Positions 35,289 to 51,122 of a DNA stretch of 63,726 nt are shown piece after piece. Every line of letters starts with the position of its first letter. Within the stretch, counting starts at the first letter, position 1. Origin of the DNA: Mesorhizobium sp. (GTDB taxonomy: Bacteria > Pseudomonadota > Alphaproteobacteria > Rhizobiales > Rhizobiaceae); assembly GCA_004020545.1 (NCBI GenBank), contig SAQE01000035.1, forward strand, positions 1 through 63,726, given 5' to 3'. The translations under genes and the position numbers were made by a program. Below the pieces are notes generated by a model. The model made no database searches. It was not told the DNA's origin and saw only the letters and a list, made by a program, of their open reading frames with translations.

Positions 35289-36563
35289 ATGTCGGTTGAG
35301 ACGATAGACACGCTTGTCGTTGGCGGCGGCCAGGCGGGGGTGGCTATGAGCGAGCACCTGACCAAATGCAGGGTGCCTCATCTCATTCTCGAGCGCGGCC
35401 GGATCGCCGAGCGCTGGCGCTCGCAGCGCTGGGATTCCCTGGTCGCCAATGGCCCGGCCTGGCATGACCGGTTCCCGGGCATGGAATTTGCGCGGACTGG
35501 TCTGGATGGCTTTCCCTCCAAGGAGGAGGTTGCCGACTATTTTGTCGCCTACGCAAAGCAGATCAACGCGCCGATCCGCTGCGGCGTGGAGGTCAAGCTT
35601 GTGCGGAGACATGTCGGTCGGCCCGGGTTCCGCGTCGAGACGTCGGACGGCGTGATCGAAGCCAACAGCGTCGTCGCCGCGACCGGACCTTTCCAGATCC
35701 CCGTTATTCCGCCTGTCGTTCCTGGCGATGCCGGCGTCCTGCAAATCCATTCCAGCGCCTACCGCAATCCCGAGCAACTGCCAAAAGGCGCGGTGCTGGT
35801 GGTCGGAGCGGGATCCTCGGGTGTGCAGATCGCGGACGAGCTCCAGCGCGCGGGAAAACGCGTCTATCTCTCGGTCGGCCCGCACGACCGCCCGCCGCGG
35901 GCCTATCGCGGCCGCGACTTCTGCTGGTGGCTGGGCGTCCTCGGCAAATGGGATGCCGAAACCCCGGGACCCGGCACCGAACATGTCACGATCGCGGTGA
36001 GCGGCGCACGCGGCGGCGAAACGATCGATTTCCGTCGTCTGGCCGCGCAGGGGCTGACCCTGGTCGGCATGACGAAGGCGTATCATGACGGCGTGATGAC
36101 CTTCGCGCCCGATCTTGCGAACAATATCGCACGCGGCGACGCCAGCCTGATGTCGCTGCTGGACGAAGCCGACGCTTATGTAACGCTGAACGGTCTTGAC
36201 CTCCCGGAAGAGCCCGCTGCGCGCCGGATCGAGCCCGATCCGGAATGCATGACCAATCCGATCCGCGAGCTCAACCTGGCCGAAGCCGGGATAGCGTCGA
36301 TCATCTGGGCGACGGGCTTTGCCGTCGACTATAGCTGGTTGCAGGTCGATGCTTTCGACGAGAAGGGCCGGCCAAGGCACCAGCGCGGCGTCTCGACCGA
36401 GCCGGGGATCTATTTCCTGGGGCTGCCGTGGCAGTCGCGAAGAGGGTCGAGTTTTATCTGGGGCGTATGGCACGATGCCAAGCACCTGGCGGACCGCATC
36501 TCCACGCAGCGCAAATATCTGGCCTACCACGCTGCCGCGAAGCGCGAGACCGTGGATGCCTGA
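35289..36563 (+). CDS. Flavin-containing monooxygenase-like oxidoreductase
   Basis: This 424-residue protein has two Rossmann motifs, GGGQAGVAMSEHL at residues 12-24 for FAD and GAGSSGVQIADEL near 170 for NAD(P)H. A late ATG motif, WATGFAVDYSWL, is typical of CzcO/FMO-like enzymes. Members oxidise amines, sulfides, ketones or indole-pyruvate; the substrate here is unknown. The ATG at 35289 replaces a longer frame from 35109. It begins a run of plus-strand genes with RidA and DUF1028 that likely share a transcript. Confidence 0.85.
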   Translation: MSVETIDTLVVGGGQAGVAMSEHLTKCRVPHLILERGRIAERWRSQRWDSLVANGPAWHDRFPGMEFARTGLDGFPSKEEVADYFVAYAKQINAPIRCGVEVKLVRRHVGRPGFRVETSDGVIEANSVVAATGPFQIPVIPPVVPGDAGVLQIHSSAYRNPEQLPKGAVLVVGAGSSGVQIADELQRAGKRVYLSVGPHDRPPRAYRGRDFCWWLGVLGKWDAETPGPGTEHVTIAVSGARGGETIDFRRLAAQGLTLVGMTKAYHDGVMTFAPDLANNIARGDASLMSLLDEADAYVTLNGLDLPEEPAARRIEPDPECMTNPIRELNLAEAGIASIIWATGFAVDYSWLQVDAFDEKGRPRHQRGVSTEPGIYFLGLPWQSRRGSSFIWGVWHDAKHLADRISTQRKYLAYHAAAKRETVDA

Positions 36564-36607
36564 CCAGAGCCGACGATCGCTGCGAGCCCGACCTGATGGA
36601 GACCAAG

Positions 36608-37024
36608 ATGGCGCATACGCGAATTCGCACCTTCAACACCAAGGATACCTATCCCGAGCAGAAGCTCGACAATGATCTCTGCCAGGCGGTTGTCACGCGC
36701 GGCGGCCGCACCGTCTATCTGCGCGGCCAGTGCCCGCAGGATCTCGACACCGCCAGGAACATCGGCAGTCACGATCCGGTCGAGCAGACCCACAAGGTCA
36801 TGCAGAACATCAAGCAGCTCATCGAGGAATGCGGCGGCACGATGGAGCATCTGGTGAAGGTGGTGGTCTATCTCACCGACGTCCGCCATCGCGAGGCCGT
36901 CTACCGGACGATGGGCGAATACATCAAAGGGGTGCATCCGGTTTCGACCGGCCTCGTCGTGTCGGCCTTGGCGCGGCCGGAATGGCTGGTCGAGATCGAC
37001 GCCACCGCCGTCATTCCGGACTGA
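36608..37024 (+). CDS. RidA-family imine/enamine deaminase-like protein
   Basis: This 138-residue protein has the YjgF/RidA fold. Family features are RTVYLRGQCPQD, the helix QTHKVMQNIKQLIEECGG and VVVYLTDVRHREAVY. The catalytic Arg of true RidA, normally in a C-terminal (S/T)-R-xx-V context, seems replaced around ARPEWLVEIDATAV by an ARPEW block that still contains Arg. The ATG at 36608 follows GGAG by nine bases. It sits 45 bases after the monooxygenase and 5 bases before DUF1028, so an operon is likely. It may clear reactive imines made in the pathway. Confidence 0.85.
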   Translation: MAHTRIRTFNTKDTYPEQKLDNDLCQAVVTRGGRTVYLRGQCPQDLDTARNIGSHDPVEQTHKVMQNIKQLIEECGGTMEHLVKVVVYLTDVRHREAVYRTMGEYIKGVHPVSTGLVVSALARPEWLVEIDATAVIPD

Positions 37025-37029
37025 TCGCC

Positions 37030-37704
37030 ATGACCTTCTCCATCGTCGCGCGCTGCCGGCGCACGGGCATGTTCGGGGTGGCGGTGTCCTCGTCATCTCC
37101 CGCCGTTGCGGCCCGTTGCGCCTATGCGCAAGCCGGCGTCGGTGCGGTCGCCAGCCAGAACGTCACCGACCCGACGCTCGGGCCTCGGGCATTGGAGTTG
37201 ATGGCGCGCGGCGCTTCCGCCACCGAGGCCGTCGCGATCCTGAAGCGGACCGGCGCTTTCACCGAATACCGGCAGATACTGGCTGTCGACGCCGCGGGCG
37301 TCAGCGCAATCCATTCAGGGCCAAAGGCGCTTGGAATCTGGGCCGAGGCGGGCGGAGAGGACGTCGCCTGCGGCGGCAACCTGCTTGCGAATGACGGAAT
37401 TCCGCAGGCCATGGTCGATGCTTTCCTCGCCTCCGAAGGCGACCTTGGCGACCGGCTGATCGCCACGATGCGTGCGGCGCTTCATGCCGGCGGCGAGGCG
37501 GGGCCTGTCCGCTCCGCCGGCATGAAGCTGGTGCGGGATGTTTCGTGGCCCGTCGCCGACCTGCGCTGCGACTGGACTGAGGCGTGTCCGATCGAGCAGT
37601 TGGCAACTTTATGGGAAATCTACAAGCCCCAGCTCGACGCCTACGTCACCCGTGCCCTCAACCCGTCCGATGCGCCGAGTTACGGCGTTCCCGGTGACGA
37701 GTAG
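37030..37704 (+). CDS. DUF1028 family, putative Ntn-hydrolase
   Basis: This 224-residue protein begins MTFSIVARCRRTGMFGVAVS, the family hallmark, with Thr2 as the likely N-terminal nucleophile after Met removal. Other typical blocks are AGVGAVASQNVTDP and GGNLLANDGIPQAM. DUF1028 genes often sit beside RidA and amidohydrolases, suggesting an amide- or peptide-cleaving role that is not well established. It begins five bases after RidA. The ATG at 37030 is fixed by the family start. The next sequence is an aldehyde dehydrogenase remnant. Confidence 0.85.
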   Translation: MTFSIVARCRRTGMFGVAVSSSSPAVAARCAYAQAGVGAVASQNVTDPTLGPRALELMARGASATEAVAILKRTGAFTEYRQILAVDAAGVSAIHSGPKALGIWAEAGGEDVACGGNLLANDGIPQAMVDAFLASEGDLGDRLIATMRAALHAGGEAGPVRSAGMKLVRDVSWPVADLRCDWTEACPIEQLATLWEIYKPQLDAYVTRALNPSDAPSYGVPGDE

Positions 37705-37725: not shown

Positions 37726-37982
37726 ATGAGCGCACTCAGCCATAAGGAATGGGTGGGCAAGGCGTCCGCGATCCGTTTCCGCGACAAGGCGTTCATCGGC
37801 GGCAAGCCGGTGCCCGCGCGCTCCGGCCGGACTTTCGCCAGCATCAATCCGGCCACGGGAGCGACGTTCGCCGAGGTCGCCTCCGGTCCGGCTTCGGGCG
37901 TGATCTGTCGCTGCACGCGCTCGACAAATACACGGCGTTGAAGACCACCTGGATCAAGTACCGAGGAGCGGCCGCGACTTGA
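37726..37982 (+). pseudogene. Aldehyde dehydrogenase reduced to its two ends
   Basis: The first 45 or so codons encode an aldehyde dehydrogenase N-terminus, with AFIGGKPVPARSGRTFASIN and PATGATFAEVA. Near 37893 the sequence jumps to the extreme C-terminus, SGFGRDLSLHALDKYTALKT, in another frame, ending at 37982. About 430 codons, including the catalytic Cys and Glu, are missing. This is an internal deletion that keeps both ends. It follows DUF1028 by 21 bases, so the intact gene was probably part of the same operon. Confidence 0.85.
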
Positions 37983-38012: not shown

Positions 38013-38948
38013 ATGCCGCTCCGCTTCACGCTCAGACAACTCGAATACTTCGTCGCCGTCGGCGAAGCCGGCTCGATCGCCAAGGCGGCCGAGCAGGTGA
38101 ATGTCTCACCGCCGTCGATCTCGGCGTCGATCGCCCAGCTCGAGGCGGAGTTCGGCGTTCAGCTCTTCGTGCGCAAGCACTCGCATGCGCTGGCGCTGAC
38201 CGCGGGCGGGCGCCTGTTCCTCAAGGAAGCCGCACGGCTGCTCAACGACGCGGATGCGCTGCACGACATTGCCGGCGATATCGCGGAAAAGGTGCGCGGA
38301 CCGCTGGCGATCGGCTGCCTTCTTACCTTCGCGCAGATTGTGCTGCCGACGCTGCGCAGGAAATTCGAGGACGCCTATCCGGACGTGCGCGTCAGGCAGT
38401 TCGAGCGCAACCAGGGGCAATTGTTCGAGATGCTGCAGCGTGGCGAGATAGACGCAGCACTCACCTATGATCTCGAACTGTCGCAGGACATGACGTTCGA
38501 GCCGCTGATGCAGTTGCCGGCCTACGTGATGCTGCCGGCCGCGCATCGCCTGGCGGGCAGGGCGGGCATCACGCCGGAGGAACTGGTCGATGAGCCGATG
38601 GTGCTTCTCGACCTGCCCTACAGCCGCGAATATTTCCTCTCGGCCTTCCAGCCCAAGGGCCTGCGGCCCAAGATCGCCGAGCGCACCGGCGACATCGCCG
38701 TGATGCGCTCGATGGTCGCAAACGGCTTCGGCTACGGTATCGCCAACATGCGGCCGCTCAACACCATGTCGCCGGACGGCAAATTGCTGGTCTTCGTGCC
38801 CCTGCTGGGCGACATCAGGCCGCTGACCATGGGAATTGCGCTGCCGAATGCCGAGCACCGCACGCTGACGGTGCAGGCCTTCATCGATCACTGTCGCCGC
38901 TTCGTCGTCGAGCAAGGCGTCTTCGGCACCGAACGCATCGTCAAATAA
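38013..38948 (+). CDS. LysR-type transcriptional regulator
   Basis: This 311-residue protein has an N-terminal winged HTH (about 5-65: FTLRQLEYFVAVGEAGSIAK through ISASIAQLEAEFG) and a LysR effector-binding domain (about 95-300). It probably controls genes of this island; the effector is unknown. Its ATG is 31 bases after the aldehyde dehydrogenase remnant. It is convergent with argE, with only six bases between the stops. Length and layout are normal. Confidence 0.9.
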   Translation: MPLRFTLRQLEYFVAVGEAGSIAKAAEQVNVSPPSISASIAQLEAEFGVQLFVRKHSHALALTAGGRLFLKEAARLLNDADALHDIAGDIAEKVRGPLAIGCLLTFAQIVLPTLRRKFEDAYPDVRVRQFERNQGQLFEMLQRGEIDAALTYDLELSQDMTFEPLMQLPAYVMLPAAHRLAGRAGITPEELVDEPMVLLDLPYSREYFLSAFQPKGLRPKIAERTGDIAVMRSMVANGFGYGIANMRPLNTMSPDGKLLVFVPLLGDIRPLTMGIALPNAEHRTLTVQAFIDHCRRFVVEQGVFGTERIVK

Positions 38949-38954
38949 GCGATA

Positions 38955-40112
38955 TCACGGCCAGCCGTCGGCGAGCCGCGACAGCAGTGTCTCCAGCATC
39001 CCGTCGCAACGCCGCAACTGTTCGACACTGACAAATTCGTCCGGCTTGTGTCCCTGTGCCATGGAACCCGGTCCGCAGACGACGGCCGGCGTGCCGAGAT
39101 CGCGGCTGAACAATCCGCCTTCCGTGCCGAAAGCGACTTTCATGGTGTCGTTGGCGCCGGTCAGAGATTTGACGAAAGCCACCGCTTCCGAAGCGGCCGG
39201 CGTGTCGAGGCCCGGATAGGTGTTGGTGATCTCGATGTCGATCGCCGCTTCGGCCGCGATCGAAGCGGCGTCGGCGGCAATGCGCGCCGCAGCAATGCGC
39301 AGCCTGTCGAGAATGACGGTGGCATCGTCGGCGGCAACGTTGCGGATCTCGAAATCGACCTGGCAAATGTTGGGCACGATGTTGAGTGCCACGCCGGCAT
39401 TGATCTTGCCGACATGCACGGTCGTATAGGGAATGTCGTAATCGCCGTCGCGTGCGCCTTCGCGGGCCAGCCGGTCCTGTTCGTCGCGCAAGGCCCGCAC
39501 GAAATCGCAACCGAGATGGATGGCGTTGAGCGCCAGCGGAGCGAGCGCCGAATGGCCTTCGCGGCCCCTGCAGACGGCGCGAGCCGCAAGCTTGCCCTTG
39601 TGCCCCGTCGCCACCTGCATGTTGGTCGGCTCGCCGACGATGCACAGCAGCGGGCGTTGCGGTGCCGCGCTCAGCATTTCGATGAGGTCGCGCACGCCGA
39701 GACAGCCGACTTCCTCGTCGTAGGAGAGCGCGAGATGCAAGGGCGTGCGAAGCGTCATCCTCGAGGCTGTGAGGCAGGCCGCGAGCGCGGAGGCCACGAA
39801 ACCCTTCATGTCCGCCGCGCCGCGCCCGTAAAGCTTGCCGTCACGCGCGGTCATCGCGAACGGCGGCAGCGTCCAGTTCTGGCCGTCGACGGGAACGACG
39901 TCGGTGTGGCCGGACAGCATGATACCGAGCTTGTCGGCCGGCCCGATCGTGGCAAAGAGATTGGCCTTGTGGCCGTCCGCGCTGTGGATGATCCGGCTGG
40001 CAATACCGCTCGCGCCGAGCAGCTCGGCCGCATAGCCGATGAGGTCGAGGTTCGAATCGCGGCTTACTGTCGGGAAGGCGATCAGCCGTTCGAGGATCCT
40101 GATGCTGTCCAT
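38955..40112 (-). CDS. argE: ArgE/DapE-family deacylase (acetylornithine deacetylase type)
   Basis: This 385-residue M20 metallopeptidase-fold protein has metal ligands in LSGHTDVVPVDGQ (His, Asp), GRGAADMKGF, EEVGCLG (Glu pair) and the final His in AQGHKPDEFV. The dimerisation domain spans about 175-290. ArgE removes acetyl from N-acetylornithine, but in catabolic islands relatives deacylate other amino acids. The ATG at 40112 is preferred over 40154. It is divergent from the TMADH-like gene across 224 bases with no clear operator found. The symbol reflects the closest named family, and the true substrate may differ. Confidence 0.8.
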   Translation of the reverse strand: MDSIRILERLIAFPTVSRDSNLDLIGYAAELLGASGIASRIIHSADGHKANLFATIGPADKLGIMLSGHTDVVPVDGQNWTLPPFAMTARDGKLYGRGAADMKGFVASALAACLTASRMTLRTPLHLALSYDEEVGCLGVRDLIEMLSAAPQRPLLCIVGEPTNMQVATGHKGKLAARAVCRGREGHSALAPLALNAIHLGCDFVRALRDEQDRLAREGARDGDYDIPYTTVHVGKINAGVALNIVPNICQVDFEIRNVAADDATVILDRLRIAAARIAADAASIAAEAAIDIEITNTYPGLDTPAASEAVAFVKSLTGANDTMKVAFGTEGGLFSRDLGTPAVVCGPGSMAQGHKPDEFVSVEQLRRCDGMLETLLSRLADGWP

Positions 40113-40336: not shown

Positions 40337-42407
40337 ATGCGCGACCCGCGCTACGACATTCTGTTCGAACAGATGAAGATCGGCCCGGTGACGGCCAAGA
40401 ACCGCTTCTATCAGGTTCCCCACTGCAATGGCGGCGGCTATCGCGATCCGTCGGCCGCGGCCGAGATGCGCCGCACCAAGTCGGAAGGCGGATGGGGCGT
40501 CATCTTCACCGAGCAGACGGAGATGCATCATACCCTCCGAGATCACGCCCTTCATTGAACTGCGGCTATGGGACGACGCCGACATTCCGGCTCTGGCCAA
40601 GATGGCGAGAGCCATGCACGAGCACGGCGCGCTGGCCGGCATCCAGCTTGCCTATTCCGGCATCAACGGTCCCAACCTCTACACCAAGGAGGTTCCGCGC
40701 GGGCCGTCGGCCCTGCCGATCCGCACCTTCACCAACGACCCGGTGCAGGCGCGCGCCATGGACAGAGAGGATATCCGCGACCTGCGCCGCTGGCACCGCA
40801 ACGCCTTCAAGCGCGCCAAGCAGGCAGGTTTCGATCTGGTGTGCCTCTATGGCGCGCACGGCTTCGGCATCATCCAGCATTTCCTCTCGACCGCCACCAA
40901 CCAGCGCAGCGACGAATATGGCGGCTCGCTGCAAAACCGCTCGCGGCTGATGCGCGAGCTGATCGAGGAAGGGCGCGACGCGATTGGCGACACCTGCGGC
41001 CTGACGCTCAGGCTGTCGCTCGACGAGATGATCGGCGAGCTTGGCTTCGCCAACTCGGAAGTCCGCGACATGATCGAGATGCATGCCGACCTGCCCGATC
41101 TCTGGGACCTCGCCCACGGCGCCTGGGAGGATTGCTCCGGGCCGTCGCGCTTCAAGGAAGAGGCGGCGCAGGAGAGCCTCGTCTCCGGCATCAAGAAGCT
41201 GACCTCGAAGCCGGTCGTCGGCGTCGGCCGCTTCACTTCGCCCGACGTGATGGTCAGGATGATCAGGTCGGGCACGCTCGACTTCATCGGCTGCGCGCGC
41301 CCGTCGATCGCCGATCCCTTCCTGCCGAGGAAGATCGAGGAGGGGCGCATCGAGGACATCCGCGAATGCATCGGCTGCAACATCTGCATCACCGGCGACA
41401 TGACGATGTCGATCTCGCGCTGCACGCAGAACCCGACCTTCATGGAGGAATGGCGCAAGGGCTGGCATCCGGAGCGCATGCAGGCCAAGGGCGACAGCGA
41501 CAGCGTGCTGATCGTCGGCGCCGGGCCTGCAGGTCTGGAGGCCGCCCGCGCGCTCGGCCTGCGCGGCTACCAGGTGGCGATAGCGGAAGCGGGCACCGAG
41601 CTCGGCGGACGCGTGGCGCGCGAGAGCCGGCTTCCGGGCCTGTCGGCCTGGGGTAGGGTGCGCGATTACCGCCAGTATCAGCTCAGCCAGATGCCGAATG
41701 TCGACATCTATTTCGAAAGCCGGCTGACGGCCGATGACATCCTGTCCTTCGGCTTCCAGAACGTCGCGGTGGCAACCGGGTCGACCTGGCGGCGTGACGG
41801 CGTCGCGCGCGCCCATGTCGTGCCGATGCCGATCGACGCCGCCATGCCGGTCTGCACGCCCGACGATCTGATGGACGGCAAGATGCCTGGCGGCAACGTC
41901 GTGCTGTTCGACGACGATCACTATTACATGGGCGGCGTGCTTGCCGAGCTGATGGCGCGTCAGGGCGCTAAGGTGACCCTGGTGACGCCCTCGGCCTATG
42001 TCTCGGACTGGACCCGCAACACGCTGGAGCAGGGGGCTATCCACCGCCGCCTGGCGGAGCTGGGAATAGATATCGTCCTCAACCGGACCGTCGCGAATAT
42101 AGCGTCAGGCGGGGTCGTCACGGCCTGCATCTATACCGGCGCGCGACGGGAGCTTACGGCCGATGCCGTCGTTCTGGTCACGTCGCGCAGTCAGGACGAC
42201 GCCGTTTGGCGCGAGCTCAAGGCCCGGGAAAACGAGTGGGCCGGCAATGGCATCCGTTCGGTCAAGGCCATCGGCGACGCCGAAGCGCCGGGACCCATCG
42301 CCTGGGCGACCTATGCCGGCCACCGCTTCGCCCGCGAGCTGGACGAGCCCGATATCGGCGACACTTTGCCATTCCGGCGAGAGGTGGCGGCGCTGGCGGT
42401 CGATTGA
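40337..42407 (+). pseudogene. Trimethylamine dehydrogenase-like flavoprotein, frameshifted
   Basis: Two overlapping frames together give a full TMADH/OYE-type protein of about 690 residues. It has an FMN barrel, a 4Fe-4S motif CIGCNICI with a later Cys in SRCTQN, and a C-terminal FAD/NAD module starting VLIVGAGPAGLEAARAL. Cys30 (YQVPHC) matches the Cys that holds FMN in TMADH. One extra C in the run at 40533-40535 shifts the frame after EMHHT. Of the aromatic cage known for TMADH, Tyr60 is Gln and the Trp near the cluster is absent, so an N-methyl amino acid may be the substrate. The indel may be real or a sequencing error. Confidence 0.8.
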
Positions 42408-42408
42408 C

Positions 42409-42498
42409 GTGGAACTCGATCGCCCCGTCTGCGCGTTTTGCGAAGCGCAAGGTTGCGGGCGCGAGGTTCGGGGGCTATGCCGGACCGACATCCCCTGA
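42409..42498 (+). CDS. Possible 29-residue Cys-rich peptide
   Basis: A GTG two bases after the TMADH-like stop opens 29 codons, MELDRPVCAFCEAQGCG and onward, with Cys at residues 8, 11, 16 and 24. The spacing of the first two is CxxC, which could bind metal. It ends 16 bases before fghA. There is no clear ribosome site of its own, but coupling to the upstream stop is possible. It may equally be chance. Confidence 0.35.
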   Translation: MELDRPVCAFCEAQGCGREVRGLCRTDIP

Positions 42499-42514
42499 CA
42501 GGAAGGTGTAGCCG

Positions 42515-43351
42515 ATGAAAGTCCTTTCCACGTCCAAATCGCATGGCGGCGTCCAGGGCGTCTACTCGCATGCCTCGCAGGCTTGCGCCTGCGACATGAC
42601 CTTTGCCGTTTTCGCGCCGCCCCAGGCCGCGGAGGGCCATGTGCCGGTGCTGTGGTACCTGTCGGGCCTTACCTGCACGCATGCCAACGTCATGGACAAG
42701 GGCGAATACCGTCGCCTGGCGGCCGAGCTGGGGCTCGTCATCGTATGCCCCGACACCAGCCCGCGCGGCCCTGATGTTCCGGACGAGAAAGACAATTGGC
42801 AGTTCGGCTGCGGCGCCGGCTTCTACGTCGACGCCACGCAGCCGCCCTATGCGAAAAACTACCGCATGTATTCCTACGTCACCGAGGAATTGCCGGCGCT
42901 CGTCGCCGCGAATTTTCCGGTCGACATGTCGCGCCAGTCGATCTTCGGCCATTCGATGGGCGGGCACGGCGCGCTGACGATCGCGCTGAAGAACCCCGAG
43001 CGCTTCAGGAGCTGCTCGGCCTTCGCGCCGATCGTGCAGCCGACGACGGCGGGCTGGTCGCGGCCGGCGTTCGAAAAATATCTGGGACCGGACGAGAAGA
43101 GCTGGCGCGCCTACGACGCCACGCTTCTCATCGAGGACGGCCATCGCCTGAGTGAGTTGCTGGTCGACCAGGGCACGGCAGACGGCTTCCTCCAGGATGG
43201 TCTTCGCCCGTGGCTGCTCGAGGACGCTTGCGGGAAGGCGGGCATCGCGCTGACGCTGCGCATGCAGGAAGGCTACGACCATTCCTACAACTTCATCTCG
43301 ACCTTCATGGACGACCATCTGAAGTGGCACGCGGCGCGGCTGGCGAGGTAG
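42515..43351 (+). CDS. fghA: S-formylglutathione hydrolase
   Basis: This 278-residue alpha/beta hydrolase belongs to the esterase D family. The nucleophile Ser is in FGHSMGGHGAL, and the Asp and His of the triad are likely in the LVDQGTAD region and GYDHSYNFI. It releases formate from S-formylglutathione in formaldehyde detoxification. A strong AGGAAGG site precedes the ATG. Following a demethylase-like flavoprotein, its presence suggests formaldehyde is produced here. No glutathione-dependent formaldehyde dehydrogenase gene is in view. Confidence 0.93.
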   Translation: MKVLSTSKSHGGVQGVYSHASQACACDMTFAVFAPPQAAEGHVPVLWYLSGLTCTHANVMDKGEYRRLAAELGLVIVCPDTSPRGPDVPDEKDNWQFGCGAGFYVDATQPPYAKNYRMYSYVTEELPALVAANFPVDMSRQSIFGHSMGGHGALTIALKNPERFRSCSAFAPIVQPTTAGWSRPAFEKYLGPDEKSWRAYDATLLIEDGHRLSELLVDQGTADGFLQDGLRPWLLEDACGKAGIALTLRMQEGYDHSYNFISTFMDDHLKWHAARLAR

Positions 43352-43360
43352 CGGAAGCAA

Positions 43361-43372
43361 GCCGGCGCCGGC
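43361..43372. terminator. GC palindrome between convergent fghA and the lyase gene
   Basis: GCCGGCGCCGGC, a perfect 12-base palindrome in the 34-base gap. There is no T-run, so termination is only suggested. Confidence 0.3.
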
Positions 43373-43385
43373 GGCAAGCTTCAGA

Positions 43386-44882
43386 TCAGAATCTCGGCCC
43401 CGCCACCATCCGCGCGACCCGCGCCATGTCCGCGCTCATCTCGCGGTCGTCGTCGAGCGGGGCGACCAGCGCGCGCACGGCGGCATAGCTGCGTTGCGGC
43501 CCTTCGCCCATGCTGTCGACCACGCCGCGCAATTCCACGCCTGTCGCCGCGAAGATCAGTTCCATCGCAACGAGATAGCGCAGCCGTTCGATGATGCCGG
43601 CGGTCTTGGCCACCACCCGGGGCGCCATCGACGACTGGTCCTCGATGCCGTCCGAAACCGCGAGCGGGCTGAGCGACATCGGATTGGCGAGGTGCCGAAT
43701 CTCGGCCTCCAGTGCGGCGACCGGTTTCTGCAGTTCCGCGTAGCCCTGGCGGCTGCCGCCCCTGGCCGACAGGAAGCGCGGCAGTTCCGCCACCGTCGGC
43801 GACATCAGCTTCATCGAGCGGTTGGCGGTGGCGACCGCGCAATGCGCGAGCGCCTGGCCGAGCTGTTCCCAGGCCAGCGTGAAGGCCGTCAGGTCGAAAT
43901 TGCCGTTTGAAACCACCCGCTCGGCCGCCGGCAGGATCACCGGATTGTCGCCCGAATGGCCGAGCTCGATCTCCGTCGCCAGCCTGGCCTGCTCAAATGC
44001 GTTGATCAGGCCGCCCCACACCTGTGGCACACAGCGGAAGCTCAGCGGATCCTGCAGGCGCCGCGCGGCGGTCTCGTGCCAAAGCCCGCTTCCGGACAGT
44101 TCCGCCCTGAGCCGCGCGCCGATCTCGCATTGCCCGAATGCCGGCCGCGCGGCCAAGGCTTCCTCGTCGATCGCCTTGAGGGACGAGCGGAACGCCTCAT
44201 AGTTGAGGGCCAGGGCCGCCAGCGACCAGTCGATGAGGCAGGCGACGTCTTCGAGGGCGAGGCATGCCGTTCCGGTCGAAAGGCTGTTGGCGACGATGAT
44301 GGCGTGGCCGTCCTTTTCGCGCAGGTCGAGCGGCTCCAGCCCGGCAAGGGAGAGCGCTTCGGCCGCCGACATGATCCTGCCCTGGAACTCGGCCTCGCCA
44401 TCGCCACCCAATGCCCTCGCCATGTGGCCGAGAGGGGCAAGATCCGCCGCCCCGATCGATCCCCAACTGGGAATCACCGGGTGGACACCGGCGTTGAGCG
44501 CCGCAAGCAAGCCCATGACAACCCGCTCGGAGGCGCCGGTGCCGCCGGCGGCCATGCCGGAAATGCGCGCCGTCATCAGCGCCCGCACCGCTTCGGCCGG
44601 CAGGGCCGGGCCGGCGCCCATCGAGTGGCTGAGCGGCACGCTGTGCTGGAAGGCGATCAGATCGGCCTCGGCAAGCGGGGTGTCGACGCAGGCGCCAAGG
44701 CCGGTGGTGACGCCATAGAGCGGCTTGCCGAGCAGAGTAAGGCGCTCGATGAGCGCGCGGCTGGCGCGGATGCGGCGCATGGCCTCTTCGCCCAGCACGA
44801 GGCGGGCGTTGCGCCGCGCGATCTCGGCGACATCGGCCGCGCTGAGCGGCCTGGCGTCGAGGACTATCACCCTGGCTGTCAT
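43386..44882 (-). CDS. Ammonia-lyase (HAL/PAL) family protein lacking the MIO triad
   Basis: This 498-residue protein aligns by eye with histidine/phenylalanine ammonia-lyases. It keeps Tyr56 in LYGVTTGLG, the QHSVPLSHS block and GHSGDNPVI. Active lyases of the family make the electrophile MIO from Ala-Ser-Gly in a GxGASGDLAPL loop. Here the loop reads GSIGAADLAPLGH (residues 141-153): one residue shorter, with no Ser-Gly. MIO cannot form. Some related enzymes eliminate trimethylamine from betaines such as ergothioneine, reportedly without MIO; this is one possible role. The ATG at 44882 replaces a longer frame. It is convergent with fghA. Confidence 0.85.
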   Translation of the reverse strand: MTARVIVLDARPLSAADVAEIARRNARLVLGEEAMRRIRASRALIERLTLLGKPLYGVTTGLGACVDTPLAEADLIAFQHSVPLSHSMGAGPALPAEAVRALMTARISGMAAGGTGASERVVMGLLAALNAGVHPVIPSWGSIGAADLAPLGHMARALGGDGEAEFQGRIMSAAEALSLAGLEPLDLREKDGHAIIVANSLSTGTACLALEDVACLIDWSLAALALNYEAFRSSLKAIDEEALAARPAFGQCEIGARLRAELSGSGLWHETAARRLQDPLSFRCVPQVWGGLINAFEQARLATEIELGHSGDNPVILPAAERVVSNGNFDLTAFTLAWEQLGQALAHCAVATANRSMKLMSPTVAELPRFLSARGGSRQGYAELQKPVAALEAEIRHLANPMSLSPLAVSDGIEDQSSMAPRVVAKTAGIIERLRYLVAMELIFAATGVELRGVVDSMGEGPQRSYAAVRALVAPLDDDREMSADMARVARMVAGPRF

Positions 44883-45128: not shown

Positions 45129-47678
45129 ATGCTGCGATGCTGCGCGTTCCTTGCGGCCTTGATCCTCGTGGGCTTCACGGCGTTCGAAGCCCATGCCGAT
45201 CGCCGGGTTGCCTTTGTGATCGGCAATTCCGAATACCGCGACATCCCGGCCCTCAAGAACCCGGACAAGGATGCCGAGGATGTGTCGAACACGTTCCGGC
45301 TGGCCGGCTTCGACGTGTTCGTCGCCAAGGACCTCACCAAGCTTCAGTTCGAGGAGCAGTTCCGCAACTATCTCGCCGCGGCGGACGGCGCCGATCTCGC
45401 TGTCGTTTATTATTCCGGCCACGGCTTTCAGATCGGCGGCGAGAATTTCCTGATCCCGGTCGATGCCTCGCTGAAGGCCGCGGCCGACATCGAAGTCCAG
45501 GCCATCAAGCTCGATGACGTGCTGGAGCAATTGCGTTCGAAATCGAAGATCCAGGTGATCATCCTCGATGCCTGCCGCAACAATCCGTTTCCGCGCAAGG
45601 ACTATTGGCTGCGGGACCAGCTGATCGCCGCAGGCGGCAGCGGCCTTGCGCAGGTGAAGAGCTCGCTGAACACGCTCATTGCCTTCGCCACCGAGCCGGG
45701 CTCGGTCGCCTACGACGGAACCGGCGACCTCAGCCCCTTCTCGTCCGCCTTTTCCCGCCGCGCGCTGGCGCCCAACCAGGAGATACGCACGGTGATGGCG
45801 GCGGTGCGCCGCGACGTGGTCAAGGCCACCGACGGCAAGCAGGTTCCGTGGGAAAACTCCTCGCTGATCGACGAGGTGGTGCTGATGCGCCGCGCCAGCC
45901 GTCCCGCGCTGCCGCCGGTGCTGGAAAAGGTCGTGCCGTCGGGCATCGGGCCCGTCGCGCTGGACCTGCCCGAACCGGTCGATGTCGATGGCGGTGCGGT
46001 CACCGTCAGCATCGAAAGGCCGCCGGCGCTTGGCCGCTTGATGCTGGACGGCAAGCCTGTCGCAACGGGCGAGCCTATCGCCGGCAAGGACCTGCCGCGC
46101 CTCGAGATGGACGTGCCGAAGGGCTCCGGCGCGCAGGAAGAGGTTGACATGCTGGCCTATGCCACGCGCGACAACTGGGGCGGTCAATCCCAGGGCATCC
46201 TGGTGTTCCGGGTCAAGAATGGCGAGGGCGCCGAAGGCCAGCAGCTCATGGCCTCGCTCGAGGCCGAGCAGAAGCAACAGGTGCTGGAGCGCGGCATCCA
46301 CATCACCGGCGCCGCCGAGGCGATCGAAAAGCGCGACATCAGCGTCCCGGTCGGCGTCGGGCCGGTTCTGCTGAAGCTGGATTTCCCGACCAAGGACCCG
46401 GCGGTCAGCCTGAAGCTCGCGAGCTATCCGGCAACGGGAACGCTGTCGCTGCCGGATCGAACCCTGTCTCCGGATTCCAGCCTGATGGCCGACGAAGTCG
46501 ACCACTTGCGCTACGAACCCCAGATCGGCGCCGTCAAGCCGCTGATCGTCGGCTTCGAAATCAGGGCCGACAACGCTTCGTCCAAACCGGCGACGATGAA
46601 ACTCTCGCCAAGCGTCGAGCCCTGCGACAGGGAGGCCGGCGAGCCTCTCGACCTGCAGGGCGTTGTCCCCGGCCTGTTGCCGAACGAAATCAGCAGCAAC
46701 GCCGTGGACGTCTGCCGGGCGGCGGTGAAGGCCTATCCGGACGTCGCCCGCTTCCGCTACGAGCTCGGGCGTGCCCTGCTCGCGGTCGGCAAGGTCGACG
46801 AGGCCAAGAAGGCGATCCAGGAGGCCGCCGACAGAGGGCATGTTCGCGCCGTGTTCGAGCTTGGCTACCTCAATGCGACGGGAACGGGGATGCCCGCCAA
46901 CCGTAAGCAGGCCAATGCCTTCTACGCGGCGGCGTCCGACAAGGGCGATCCCTACGGGATGACGTCATGGGGCCGAGCCTTGTTCAACGGCTACGGCGTC
47001 GACCGCGACACCGTCAAGGGGCTGGACCTGCTGCTCAAGGCGGCGGCGATGGGCCATACCTACGCCATGAACGATCTTGCCGCGATCTTCACGGAGGGCC
47101 GTAACGGCGTGCCCGCCGATCCGGCCCGCGCCGTGGCCTTCCTCAAGGCCGGCGTCGAGCGAGAGGACATGTATTCGATGAACCTGCTCGGCCGCAATTA
47201 TCTCGCCGGCACGGGGGTCGAGAAGGATCCGAAGGCTGCGCTCTCGCTTTTCCAGAAGTCAATGGATCTTGGCCAGCCCTACGCTCCCGGCAGCCTTGCA
47301 CGCATGTACAGGGACGGTGTTGGCGTGCAGCAGGATCTTGCCGAGGCGCAAAGGCTGTTCGAGCTGGCGACCGACCGGGGCGATCAGTCGGCTGCGTATG
47401 ATCGCGCGGCCCTGGAGATGCAAAAGGGCGACAAGGCCGATCAGGCGGTTGCCGTGCGCTACCTTGCTTTCGCGGCCGCGCTCGATCTTCGCAATGAAAT
47501 TCCGGATGCAAAAAACACGCTGACGAAATTCGGAGCCAAGGCGAAAACGGCGGCTCTGAAACAGATGCGCGGGGAACTCAAATCGAAGATTTCGGCGGAC
47601 GGCTCGTTGGACGATCAACTGGTCAAGACGGCCAGGGCGGTCTGGGAACAAGCCAACCCGCGTCGGGATTTGTTCTGA
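45129..47678 (+). CDS. Secreted caspase-like peptidase with Sel1 repeats
   Basis: This 849-residue protein has a signal peptide (about 1-23), a caspase-like p20 domain (about 25-250), a beta-rich middle (about 260-500), and Sel1-type helical repeats (about 540-780). The catalytic dyad is intact: His98 in YYSGHGFQ and Cys149 in LDACRNNP. Sel1 repeats bind partner proteins. The protein is predicted to be periplasmic. A small lipoprotein gene follows after about 20 bases. Caspase-like proteins are frequent in rhizobia, but the targets are unknown. A second, different caspase-like gene lies nearby at 49500-51122. Confidence 0.88.
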   Translation: MLRCCAFLAALILVGFTAFEAHADRRVAFVIGNSEYRDIPALKNPDKDAEDVSNTFRLAGFDVFVAKDLTKLQFEEQFRNYLAAADGADLAVVYYSGHGFQIGGENFLIPVDASLKAAADIEVQAIKLDDVLEQLRSKSKIQVIILDACRNNPFPRKDYWLRDQLIAAGGSGLAQVKSSLNTLIAFATEPGSVAYDGTGDLSPFSSAFSRRALAPNQEIRTVMAAVRRDVVKATDGKQVPWENSSLIDEVVLMRRASRPALPPVLEKVVPSGIGPVALDLPEPVDVDGGAVTVSIERPPALGRLMLDGKPVATGEPIAGKDLPRLEMDVPKGSGAQEEVDMLAYATRDNWGGQSQGILVFRVKNGEGAEGQQLMASLEAEQKQQVLERGIHITGAAEAIEKRDISVPVGVGPVLLKLDFPTKDPAVSLKLASYPATGTLSLPDRTLSPDSSLMADEVDHLRYEPQIGAVKPLIVGFEIRADNASSKPATMKLSPSVEPCDREAGEPLDLQGVVPGLLPNEISSNAVDVCRAAVKAYPDVARFRYELGRALLAVGKVDEAKKAIQEAADRGHVRAVFELGYLNATGTGMPANRKQANAFYAAASDKGDPYGMTSWGRALFNGYGVDRDTVKGLDLLLKAAAMGHTYAMNDLAAIFTEGRNGVPADPARAVAFLKAGVEREDMYSMNLLGRNYLAGTGVEKDPKAALSLFQKSMDLGQPYAPGSLARMYRDGVGVQQDLAEAQRLFELATDRGDQSAAYDRAALEMQKGDKADQAVAVRYLAFAAALDLRNEIPDAKNTLTKFGAKAKTAALKQMRGELKSKISADGSLDDQLVKTARAVWEQANPRRDLF

Positions 47679-49460: not shown

Positions 49461-49509
49461 ACGGGAGACGGTCCCAATGGGGCCCGTCTCCCGTTTCTGT
49501 CAGTTTTTG
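49461..49509 (+). terminator. Rho-independent terminator after the OmpA-like gene
   Basis: An 11-base stem ACGGGAGACGG/CCGTCTCCCGT (49461-49471 and 49484-49494) is followed by TTCTGTCAGTTTTTG. It lies between convergent genes and may work for the minus-strand caspase gene in part. Confidence 0.8.
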
Positions 49510-51122
49510 TTGAGCACGCCGCCCACCGCGACTCCAGTGCCGAAGATCAGCGCCTTGGTCAGGAAGTCGTTGTTGTCGTTCGGCGGCGGGCCGTCCTCAC
49601 GAACAACGGTTTCGCTGTTGCGCCTCCGCTGGACAAGCTGCTGTTTCCGGCGCGGCTTTTCGGCCACTGGCTTCAGCGTGCGGGTCTTCTGCACCACAGG
49701 CTTCTTCGGTGGCGTGATGCGCGCCTGATCGGCGGTATTCTTGGCGCGTATTGCATCCATCATCGGGTCGGTCTGGATCGTCAGGAACGCCAGTTGCGCG
49801 CGCGTCAGATAGGTGGTCTGCGGCAGGCCGTTCTTGCCCTGCCAGACGCCGATCGCCTGGCGCGTCTTCGGACCGATATTGCCGTCGACCTGGCCGAGTT
49901 CGTTGCCAAGGGCCTCGATACGAAGCTGCAGGTCGATGCGGCCGTTCCGGTCGAGCCCGATTGCGCCTTCCGTCTGCTCGGTGCCCGGTGTCTGCTTCAT
50001 CTCGTCGGTAATGCCGACGGAGGTGCGCACGGCCGAGCCGGCATTGGCGCTTGCCTCGTTCGTATCGAGGGCCGCGACCTGCTTGTTGCCCGTCTTAGGA
50101 TCCTTCAATTGATCGATGTTGAGCTTGGCCACCGTGGCGAAGCGGCCGTTCGGAAATTGTTCGAGATAGGCTTCGTAGAACGGGATGGCATTCTTCTTCG
50201 AAGCCTCGTCCCAGAGGCGCTGCTCGACTTCCCAGGAAGGCGCTTCGCTGGCCACCGGAGCGGGCGCAGGCGCCGCCGTCGTCTTGGCTGCGTCGGCGAC
50301 GGGTGCCGCGACAGGCGCGGCCTCTACCGCCTGCTTGCCGAGGAAGACCTCGCGCCCCAGCGATGCATTGTGCCAGGGCCGCTGCCGGCCCTGCGTGGCT
50401 TCCGTCACCTCGCCGCGCACACGCGTCAAGGCGCTCTGGATTTCGACGCCGGGCTCGGTCAGGTGCTTGGCCAGCGCCAGCGAATAAGGGCTGTCGACGC
50501 CGTTGCCGTCGAAGGCGATGGCGCCGGGGTCTGTCGCGTAGGCGATGAGCACGCCGCCCGTGCCGACACCGTCGGCCTTCGCTTCGACCGGCGCAAGGCC
50601 GGCGCCGAGCGAGCGGCTCTTCGGCAATGAGGCAGCCAGCGTTCTCGCCAGCGGATTGTCGCGGCAGGCGTCGAGGATGATGACGCCGACGGCCGGATCG
50701 GGCGGCAACGCCGCCATGAACTCGTCGATCTGCACCGTGCGGGTCTTGAGATAGGCCGGCGACGTCAATTCGGCATCGACCGGGATCAGGTAGTTCTTGC
50801 CGTCGACCTGCATGCCGTGGCCGGCATAGAAGATGACGGCGAGGTCGGCATTGTAGGATTCCTCGGTGAAGCGGCTGATCAGGCCATGCATGCCTTGATT
50901 GTCCTGGTCGACGCCTTCGATCACGTCGAAGCCCGCATTGCGCAGCGTCGAGGCGATGAGCTGCGCGTCGTTGGCGGGGTTCGGCAAAGGCACGGCATTG
51001 ACATATTTGCTGTTGCCGATGACCAGCGCGACCCGCTTGGCGTCGGGCGCGGCGGCCTGGGCGCCGAACGCGGCGAGGAAAAACAGGATAAATCCACTCA
51101 CAAGGACGGCGAACGTTTTCAT
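49500..51122 (-). CDS. Secreted caspase-like peptidase with peptidoglycan-binding-like domain
   Basis: This 540-residue protein has a signal peptide (about 1-24), a caspase p20 domain (about 28-270) with His102 in FYAGHGMQ and Cys153 in LDACRDNP, and an Ala/Pro linker (about 280-310). A short helical segment and a PG_binding_1-like domain (about 395-450) follow, then a basic stretch and a final glycine-containing hydrophobic segment. The dyad is intact, so it may cut proteins in the periplasm while attached to the wall. It is downstream of the M23 hydrolase gene in the same direction, across a 222-base gap with no feature I can name. Confidence 0.87.
   Translation of the reverse strand: MKTFAVLVSGFILFFLAAFGAQAAAPDAKRVALVIGNSKYVNAVPLPNPANDAQLIASTLRNAGFDVIEGVDQDNQGMHGLISRFTEESYNADLAVIFYAGHGMQVDGKNYLIPVDAELTSPAYLKTRTVQIDEFMAALPPDPAVGVIILDACRDNPLARTLAASLPKSRSLGAGLAPVEAKADGVGTGGVLIAYATDPGAIAFDGNGVDSPYSLALAKHLTEPGVEIQSALTRVRGEVTEATQGRQRPWHNASLGREVFLGKQAVEAAPVAAPVADAAKTTAAPAPAPVASEAPSWEVEQRLWDEASKKNAIPFYEAYLEQFPNGRFATVAKLNIDQLKDPKTGNKQVAALDTNEASANAGSAVRTSVGITDEMKQTPGTEQTEGAIGLDRNGRIDLQLRIEALGNELGQVDGNIGPKTRQAIGVWQGKNGLPQTTYLTRAQLAFLTIQTDPMMDAIRAKNTADQARITPPKKPVVQKTRTLKPVAEKPRRKQQLVQRRRNSETVVREDGPPPNDNNDFLTKALIFGTGVAVGGVLNKN

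Follow-up and report, generated by a model that had tools for sequence, protein, structure and literature searches.

The DNA analyzed here, hereafter the window, is a stretch of 63,726 nucleotides from Mesorhizobium sp. (contig SAQE01000035.1 of assembly GCA_004020545.1, forward strand), whose closest matches among named records also came from Mesorhizobium. The host genome comprises 7.0 Mb in 188 contigs. Three neighboring genes of the window encode a flavin-dependent dehydrogenase, an S-formylglutathione hydrolase (FghA), and a lyase of the PF00221 family (Table 1). In a preliminary description, these genes were proposed to act together in the breakdown of a betaine or N-methyl amino acid. 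The lyase, unable to make the 4-methylideneimidazole-5-one (MIO) group of ordinary ammonia-lyases, was to eliminate trimethylamine; a demethylase resembling trimethylamine dehydrogenase (TMADH) was to release formaldehyde, and FghA was to act on the formaldehyde adduct.

Table 1. Features of the window discussed in the text (HAL, histidine ammonia-lyase; FAD, flavin adenine dinucleotide)
Feature	Position	Strand	Remarks
MIO-free PF00221 lyase (ergothionase-like), stand-alone gene	43386..44882	-	498 aa
Codons for GSIGAAD, lyase residues 141-147	44442..44462	-	Compare MIO-forming GSVGASGD of HAL; positions derived from the lyase start codon (44882)
Predicted histamine dehydrogenase gene, frame-broken	40337..42407	+	Split into piece A (40337-40558) and piece B (open to 42407)
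Pocket residues checked in the dehydrogenase			Cys30, Gln60, Ile69, Phe72, Glu74, Asn110, Phe131, Tyr171, His174, Phe176, Arg225, Trp263, Asp265, Asp354
fghA, S-formylglutathione hydrolase	42515..43351	+	TIGR02821, 459 bits versus a cut-off of 281.7
FAD monooxygenase, candidate imidazoleacetate monooxygenase	35289..36563	+	HinF-like by gene company
RidA-family protein	36596..37024	+	HinL-like by name match
DUF1028 protein of the putative histamine/imidazoleacetate block	37030..37704	+	
Aldehyde dehydrogenase remnant	37726..37964	+	First ~52 and last ~30 residues, internal deletion
LysR-type regulator of the putative histamine block	38013..38948	+	
M20 deacylase, acetylornithine deacetylase family, part of the putative histamine block	38955..40112	-	

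The lyase reading frame was confirmed, and its product scored 432 bits against PF00221. By score the protein falls outside the HALs, reaching 385.5 bits against the hutH profile, whose cut-off is 539. Where HAL has GSVGASGDL the lyase reads GSIGAADL, so that the site is one residue shorter and Ala-Ser-Gly is absent. Since the shortened G-A-A-D site holds no serine, MIO cannot form in this protein, as had been claimed. The deletion, Leu in place of HAL Tyr280, an added Lys386, and Asp for Glu at position 191 occurred together in 40 of 43 aligned sequences (the window and ergothionase 6s7j included), many of these 40 rows being closely related to one another, and the three HAL rows had not one of the four features. 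The three substitutions were also present in 120 of 124 lyase loci, a set in which some genomes are duplicated and three entries are true HALs. The MIO-free lyase of L222, which is more distantly related, has the Leu and lacks the Lys and Asp (L- and G-numbers are the locus and genome labels of this analysis).

The ergothionase-type residues checked, Tyr56, Asn199, Gln277, Arg283, Lys386, and Glu414, are all kept in the window lyase and present in the ergothionase row. Those common to both proteins did not vary in either of two alignments that included the window, one with 8 sequences and one with 19. The column of HAL Asn195 holds Val, and Asn199 follows two columns later, where ergothionase has Asn too. 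The Ser85-His86 pair is as in HAL and Treponema denticola ergothionase. In a single-query search among solved structures, ergothionase (254 bits) led the next HAL (247.6 bits) by a small gap, which widened to 369 versus 338.6 bits with a profile built from 19 relatives. The structure predicted for the lyase had a mean predicted local distance difference test score of 78.9, with values below 50 at residues 59-71, 74-88, 141-146, 363-377, and 408-414. When this model was searched with Foldseek, the top three rows were ergothionase chains with the best E-value and template modeling (TM) scores of 0.87 to 0.88; rows for HAL, tyrosine ammonia-lyase (TAL), and aminomutases ranged from 0.83 to 0.88. 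Fold alone cannot tell ergothionase apart from these other enzymes; the residues can. Judged by them, the window protein is a further ergothionase-like MIO-free lyase, an enzyme of a known kind.

By analogy with ergothionase, the lyase would release trimethylamine from an amino-acid betaine through beta-elimination, with a tyrosine as the assisting base, and leave an alpha,beta-unsaturated acid. We regard trimethylamine elimination as probable. Sequence, fold, and the genes that accompany its relatives lend support to this part of the original proposal. In a sample of 119 genomes of the genus, with an orthologue threshold of at least 86% identity for the lyase and the dehydrogenase, the lyase occurred in at least 52 genomes, host included (49 full-length copies and 3 partial or split). 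This is a lower bound, and counts built on it hold among the matches listed. The orthologues, found in at least 51 of the 118 other genomes, were 86 to 97% identical, with that of L034 at 97%, which argues that the gene is kept.

The flavoenzyme gene proved to be of a different kind than proposed. The frameshift noted earlier was confirmed: the first frame stops at 40556-40558, another frame continues to 42407, and the change lies near 40.53-40.55 kb. The relative in L034 has a single uninterrupted frame. Among solved structures, the best match was Rhizobium histamine dehydrogenase (6de6, 1080 bits), followed by histamine dehydrogenase 3k30 (769 bits) and TMADH (1djn, 487 bits). Across the two pieces of the broken gene, all 14 pocket residues checked were identical to those of the Rhizobium enzyme; the residue list came from an excerpt of PMC10180351, and numbering was anchored on the SEITPFIE stretch. 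Gln60, Trp263, and Asp354, which had been taken for a partly kept TMADH aromatic cage, are what that excerpt gives for Rhizobium histamine dehydrogenase. By its pocket the gene thus belongs with the histamine dehydrogenases, although a single intact frame is missing from the window. An identity as TMADH or demethylase was not supported by the scores. Since the encoded enzyme most likely oxidizes histamine, as judged from these matches, neither demethylation nor formaldehyde would be expected from it.

The company of the dehydrogenase points the same way. Twenty of its 23 non-window matches among 297 genomes of the order were examined as loci, some of them cut by contig ends. Genes for the FAD monooxygenase, RidA, and DUF1028 proteins were near it in 9 of the 20, and RidA and DUF1028 genes without the monooxygenase in 2 more. 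These three genes together with those for the LysR and M20 proteins all stand beside the dehydrogenase in five Mesorhizobium loci (L188-L192). Plasmids of Paracoccus seriniphilus and Pseudohalocynthiibacter carry the run FAD monooxygenase-RidA-DUF1028-aldehyde dehydrogenase-dehydrogenase-argE-LysR, which on the latter plasmid adjoins an aspartate ammonia-lyase gene. A compact FAD monooxygenase-RidA-DUF1028-argE set was present on two beta-proteobacterial plasmids.

In relatives with intact copies, histamine dehydrogenase would convert histamine to imidazole acetaldehyde, and aldehyde dehydrogenase would yield imidazoleacetate. The FAD monooxygenase would then attack the ring, and RidA, the DUF1028 protein, and the M20 hydrolase would complete the route to aspartate. 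We infer this assignment of steps to proteins from the hin pathway of Pseudomonas putida. By family and gene company, the window has the FAD monooxygenase, RidA, amidohydrolase-type, and amine-oxidizing genes of a hin-like cluster, and only the ends of the gene for imidazole acetaldehyde dehydrogenase. A full-length aldehyde dehydrogenase gene lies between the DUF1028 and LysR genes in L125 and L188-L192, whereas just the first 44 to 52 and the last 30 residues are left in the window and L034. With this deletion and the frame change, the window locus loses its first and second steps in the use of histamine, and these entry steps are probably dead.

As a separate observation, relatives of the FAD monooxygenase were found in 238 plasmid records, of which 105 are from Klebsiella and 234 show 60 to 80% identity. 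Plasmids may commonly carry the imidazoleacetate module; neighbors of the monooxygenase gene were seen in only a few of these records.

Whether the three genes form a unit was judged from their distribution, including a tblastn comparison of 15 window proteins with 40 loci, 80 named loci, and the 20 dehydrogenase loci; some loci in the first two sets come from identical genomes. A dehydrogenase orthologue was found in 63 of the 119 genus genomes. Among the matches listed, 35 genomes had both lyase and dehydrogenase, 17 the lyase only, 28 the dehydrogenase only, and 39 neither. The two genes were less than 3 kb apart in only 3 of the 35 (G000, G011, and G019, i.e., the window and two close relatives), and 33 to 55 kb apart in 8; another 5 genomes have them at a greater distance within one contig, and in the remaining 19 they sit on separate contigs. 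None of the 20 dehydrogenase loci contained the lyase, and one contained FghA. Conversely, the dehydrogenase was present in 1 and FghA in 3 of 25 lyase-orthologue loci of the genus, and in 1 and 4, respectively, of the 80 named lyase loci. When window DNA was compared with the 25 loci (L034-L053 and L059-L063), similarity in 22 of them started about 50 bases or less from the start codon of the lyase and stopped at most about 13 bases from its stop codon. The exceptions, in which similarity extended beyond the gene, were the close relatives L034, L035, and L036; L063, one of the 22, has a separate fghA match. Because similarity ends where the gene ends, the lyase gene appears to have relocated on its own more than once.

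Joint degradation of a betaine or N-methyl amino acid by lyase, demethylase, and FghA, with clearance of formaldehyde, is therefore highly improbable. The three genes are indeed all present and adjacent in the window, as well as in L034 and L125, and lyase and dehydrogenase co-occur with a weakly positive trend. Against this stand a flavoenzyme that is tied to another gene set, its rare adjacency to the lyase, the ending of similarity at the lyase gene, and an FghA that is the sole copy detected in the host genome. The identity of FghA was confirmed by its profile score (Table 1). It is a hydrolase of formaldehyde detoxification and an unrelated neighbor of the lyase. The three-gene betaine module was thus rejected. 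We consider it likely instead that the segment from 35.3 to 42.4 kb represents what is left of a decayed cluster for histamine use, that the lyase is an independent MIO-free gene for trimethylamine elimination from a betaine, and that FghA is related to neither.

Regarding the substrate of the lyase, the Ser85-His86 pair, which HAL and T. denticola ergothionase also have, speaks for an imidazole compound. An imidazole betaine is accordingly a serious, if somewhat doubtful, candidate, a betaine of histidine being the best fit. The host genome has three PF00221 matches, namely an ordinary hutH on C184 with a urocanase-family gene beside it, a second MIO-free gene on C111, and the window lyase. 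Profile searches of this genome found neither ErtD nor a thiourocanate hydratase over the cut-off, and a UbiD of the type in L126 (see below) was matched there at 30% only. The lack of ErtD and of the hydratase, together with the urocanase-family gene beside hutH, favors hercynine, which would be split into trimethylamine and urocanate; the urocanate would enter the Hut pathway, with no new genes needed. Hercynine itself is nonetheless a tentative assignment and, on balance, rather unlikely.

It is distinctly unlikely that the lyase is a true ergothionase acting on ergothioneine, with thiourocanate excreted or handled by unrecognized enzymes, although several relatives point in this direction. 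The closest solved relative is ergothionase. The lyase of Rhizobium setariae L135 (58% identical) lies beside genes for thiourocanate hydratase (1024 bits, cut-off 930) and thiohydantoin desulfurase (571 bits, cut-off 440), and two further genes there, assigned by identity, are 65% and 78% identical to ErtE and ErtD of L126; from these matches, the neighborhood is identified as an ergothioneine cluster. In L126, a Rhizobiaceae metagenome-assembled genome whose lyase is 72% identical, genes for UbiX, UbiD, ErtE (583 bits, cut-off 520), and ErtD (776 bits, cut-off 600) adjoin. A tree placed L135 in sister position, with weak support (83/67), and L126 as the nearest outgroup; the ergothionase row formed a long branch of unsure exact place, and the midpoint root served for drawing only. 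This alternative is countered by the two gene products missing from the host genome and by their scarcity in the genus, where thiourocanate hydratase exceeded the cut-off in 0 of 119 genomes and ErtD was found in 4 of 119. UbiD and UbiX genes also adjoin the lyase of Komagataeibacter L128 (62% identical).

A number of side observations were made on such gene sets. ErtD-ErtE-UbiD-UbiX sets occur in L126, L222, L223, and L224, and three very different MIO-free PF00221-like lyases were present in L126, L222, and L223. In L225 (2380-9354), ErtE/ErtD-type genes and a urocanase-family gene accompany a MIO-bearing HAL, which makes for a possible histidine route through hydantoin propionate.

Other relatives keep different company. 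On plasmid pAMI4 of Paracoccus aminophilus, the lyase (69% identical) belongs to a run of coenzyme A (CoA) transferase, short-chain dehydrogenase/reductase (SDR), MaoC, and lyase genes. Many Rhizobium lyases (56 to 61% identical) have a gene of the ornithine cyclodeaminase (OCD) family next door, and a subset of these loci adds CoA-transferase, SDR, MaoC, a HutC-type regulator, a glycine-betaine-type binding protein, and transporter genes. Such a Rhizobium run looks like an undescribed betaine-use operon, to judge by its genes. The Paracoccus and Rhizobium runs raise the alternative that the substrate of the window lyase is a plant betaine, namely that of tryptophan, phenylalanine, or tyrosine, the unsaturated acid being processed via a CoA-thioester route. 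The SDR proteins of the Paracoccus and Rhizobium runs are about 70% identical and the MaoC proteins 47 to 52%, but their CoA transferases gave no match to each other on comparison. Moreover, at the position of window His86 the Rhizobium group carries Arg, so that substrates may differ, and no CoA-transferase, SDR, or MaoC gene adjoins the window lyase. This alternative is quite unlikely as well.

Independently of the window, eleven Rhizobium loci (L155, L158-L161, L163-L166, L232, and L233, pRL12 of strain 3841 included) hold CoA-transferase, SDR, MaoC, MIO-free lyase, glycine-betaine-type binding protein, and OCD-family genes. Upstream of this set, L232 and L233 have genes for a HutC-type regulator, a PhnD/SsuA-type binding protein, permeases, an ATPase, and a putative sulfate exporter.

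The position of His86 (column of HAL His83) is one that we take to steer substrate choice in the family, and the His89Phe TAL structures among the fold matches are in keeping with such a role. Arg stands here in 42 of the 124 lyase loci and His in 81, the remaining locus being truncated. An OCD-family gene was found in 42/42 Arg86-type loci versus 0/81 His-type loci; Ert or UbiD genes occur in four MIO-free His-type loci (L126, L128, L135, and L222). This split should be read as a lead rather than as statistical evidence, since the set contains duplicates and the three HALs and the tree shows few independent His/Arg changes. The constant OCD-family partner is unexplained by known ergothionase chemistry, and a lyase that has left betaine chemistry, for instance for another leaving group handled with OCD-family enzymes, or has become inactive, was considered on this basis. 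For the window it is improbable, as its lyase is of the His86 type, its ergothionase-shared residues are invariant, and its orthologues are conserved across the genus. Separately, the second MIO-free lyase of the host (L064) and those of L066-L073 form another clade, about 41% identical, in which an OCD-family gene lies directly upstream in 9/9 loci.

More broadly, the large MIO-free branch annotated as hutH in rhizobia and other alphaproteobacteria could comprise unrecognized trimethylamine lyases for amino-acid betaines, in which the His/Arg switch separates an imidazole-betaine type, with the window clade and the relatives linked to ergothioneine, from an OCD-linked type, often with betaine-type transporters and CoA-transferase/SDR/MaoC genes, and the window gene would be a solitary hercynine lyase feeding Hut. 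As a whole, this combination is unlikely.

Several observations weigh against the reading of a histamine remnant beside an independent betaine lyase, or against hercynine as the substrate. The urocanase-family profile was matched in 119/119 genus genomes and does not discriminate, the CoA route of P. aminophilus is at odds with urocanate feeding Hut, and ergothioneine genes stand beside the L135 and L126 lyases. Across Mesorhizobium, the window clade has no shared pathway partners, so the substrate rests on relatives, and MIO-free relatives beside OCD-family genes may use other leaving groups. The fold scores of ergothionase (TM 0.88) and the other enzymes (up to 0.88) are near equal, and the lyase model is weak around the active-site loops. 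The frame change in the dehydrogenase could be an assembly error, and 9 of its 20 loci show no FAD monooxygenase, RidA, or DUF1028 gene within the stretch examined. Finally, lyase and dehydrogenase co-occur slightly above expectation (Fisher P = 0.009, uncorrected for shared ancestry), and the spacing of 33 to 55 kb recurs in eight genomes (G009, G033, G039, G050, G066, G070, G078, and G112).

These findings correct a tempting pathway and re-identify a broken histamine dehydrogenase gene in a cluster that is being lost. They also show that behind hutH annotations in rhizobia stand MIO-free lyases unable to work as ordinary ammonia-lyases; several of these adjoin betaine-type transporters or ergothioneine genes. 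If such lyases do eliminate trimethylamine, root-associated bacteria would be setting it free from betaines of plant or fungal origin. Ergothionase has been reported from Burkholderia, Agrobacterium radiobacter, and others, as cited in an excerpt of PMC13405746. Among the matches listed in literature searches, there was no paper on MIO-free lyases in rhizobia. Elsewhere in the window, paralogues at 45129-47678 and 49500-51122 match each other at 37 to 39%. We take them to be caspase-like and the gene between them to be OmpA-like.

Compared with known systems, the lyase resembles T. denticola ergothionase (6s7j/6s7q) in fold (TM ~0.88), the MIO site one residue short, the Leu, Lys, and Asp substitutions, the displaced Asn, and the Ser-His pair. 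It differs in an identity of only about 30%, in the lack of ergothioneine-pathway genes around it, and in a genome without ErtD or an over-cut-off hydratase. With HutH (P. putida 1gkj and the host copy on C184) it shares family, fold, Tyr56, Gln277, Arg283, Glu414, and the Ser-His pair; unlike HutH, it has no MIO triad, carries the Leu, Lys386, and Val (Asn195 column), and scores under the hutH cut-off. The dehydrogenase matches Rhizobium sp. 6de6 in score and pocket but is frame-broken. TMADH 1djn belongs to the same superfamily, yet at its cage aromatics, which we take to be Tyr60, Trp264, and Trp355, the window protein has Gln60 and Asp354 at the first and last. The hin system of P. putida, as far as excerpts of PMC6467879 describe it, comprises an FAD monooxygenase (HinF, EC 1.14.13.5), an enamine deaminase (HinL), amidases (HinG and HinH), aldehyde dehydrogenase HinD, and aspartase HinI, all listed in its Table 3. 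The window block or its relatives share the FAD monooxygenase, RidA, amidase-type, and aldehyde dehydrogenase roles, with an aspartase in one relative, a likeness of function names and gene company rather than of alignments. The first step sets the two apart, being assigned to the aminotransferase HinC in the hin system and to a flavin dehydrogenase in the window block.

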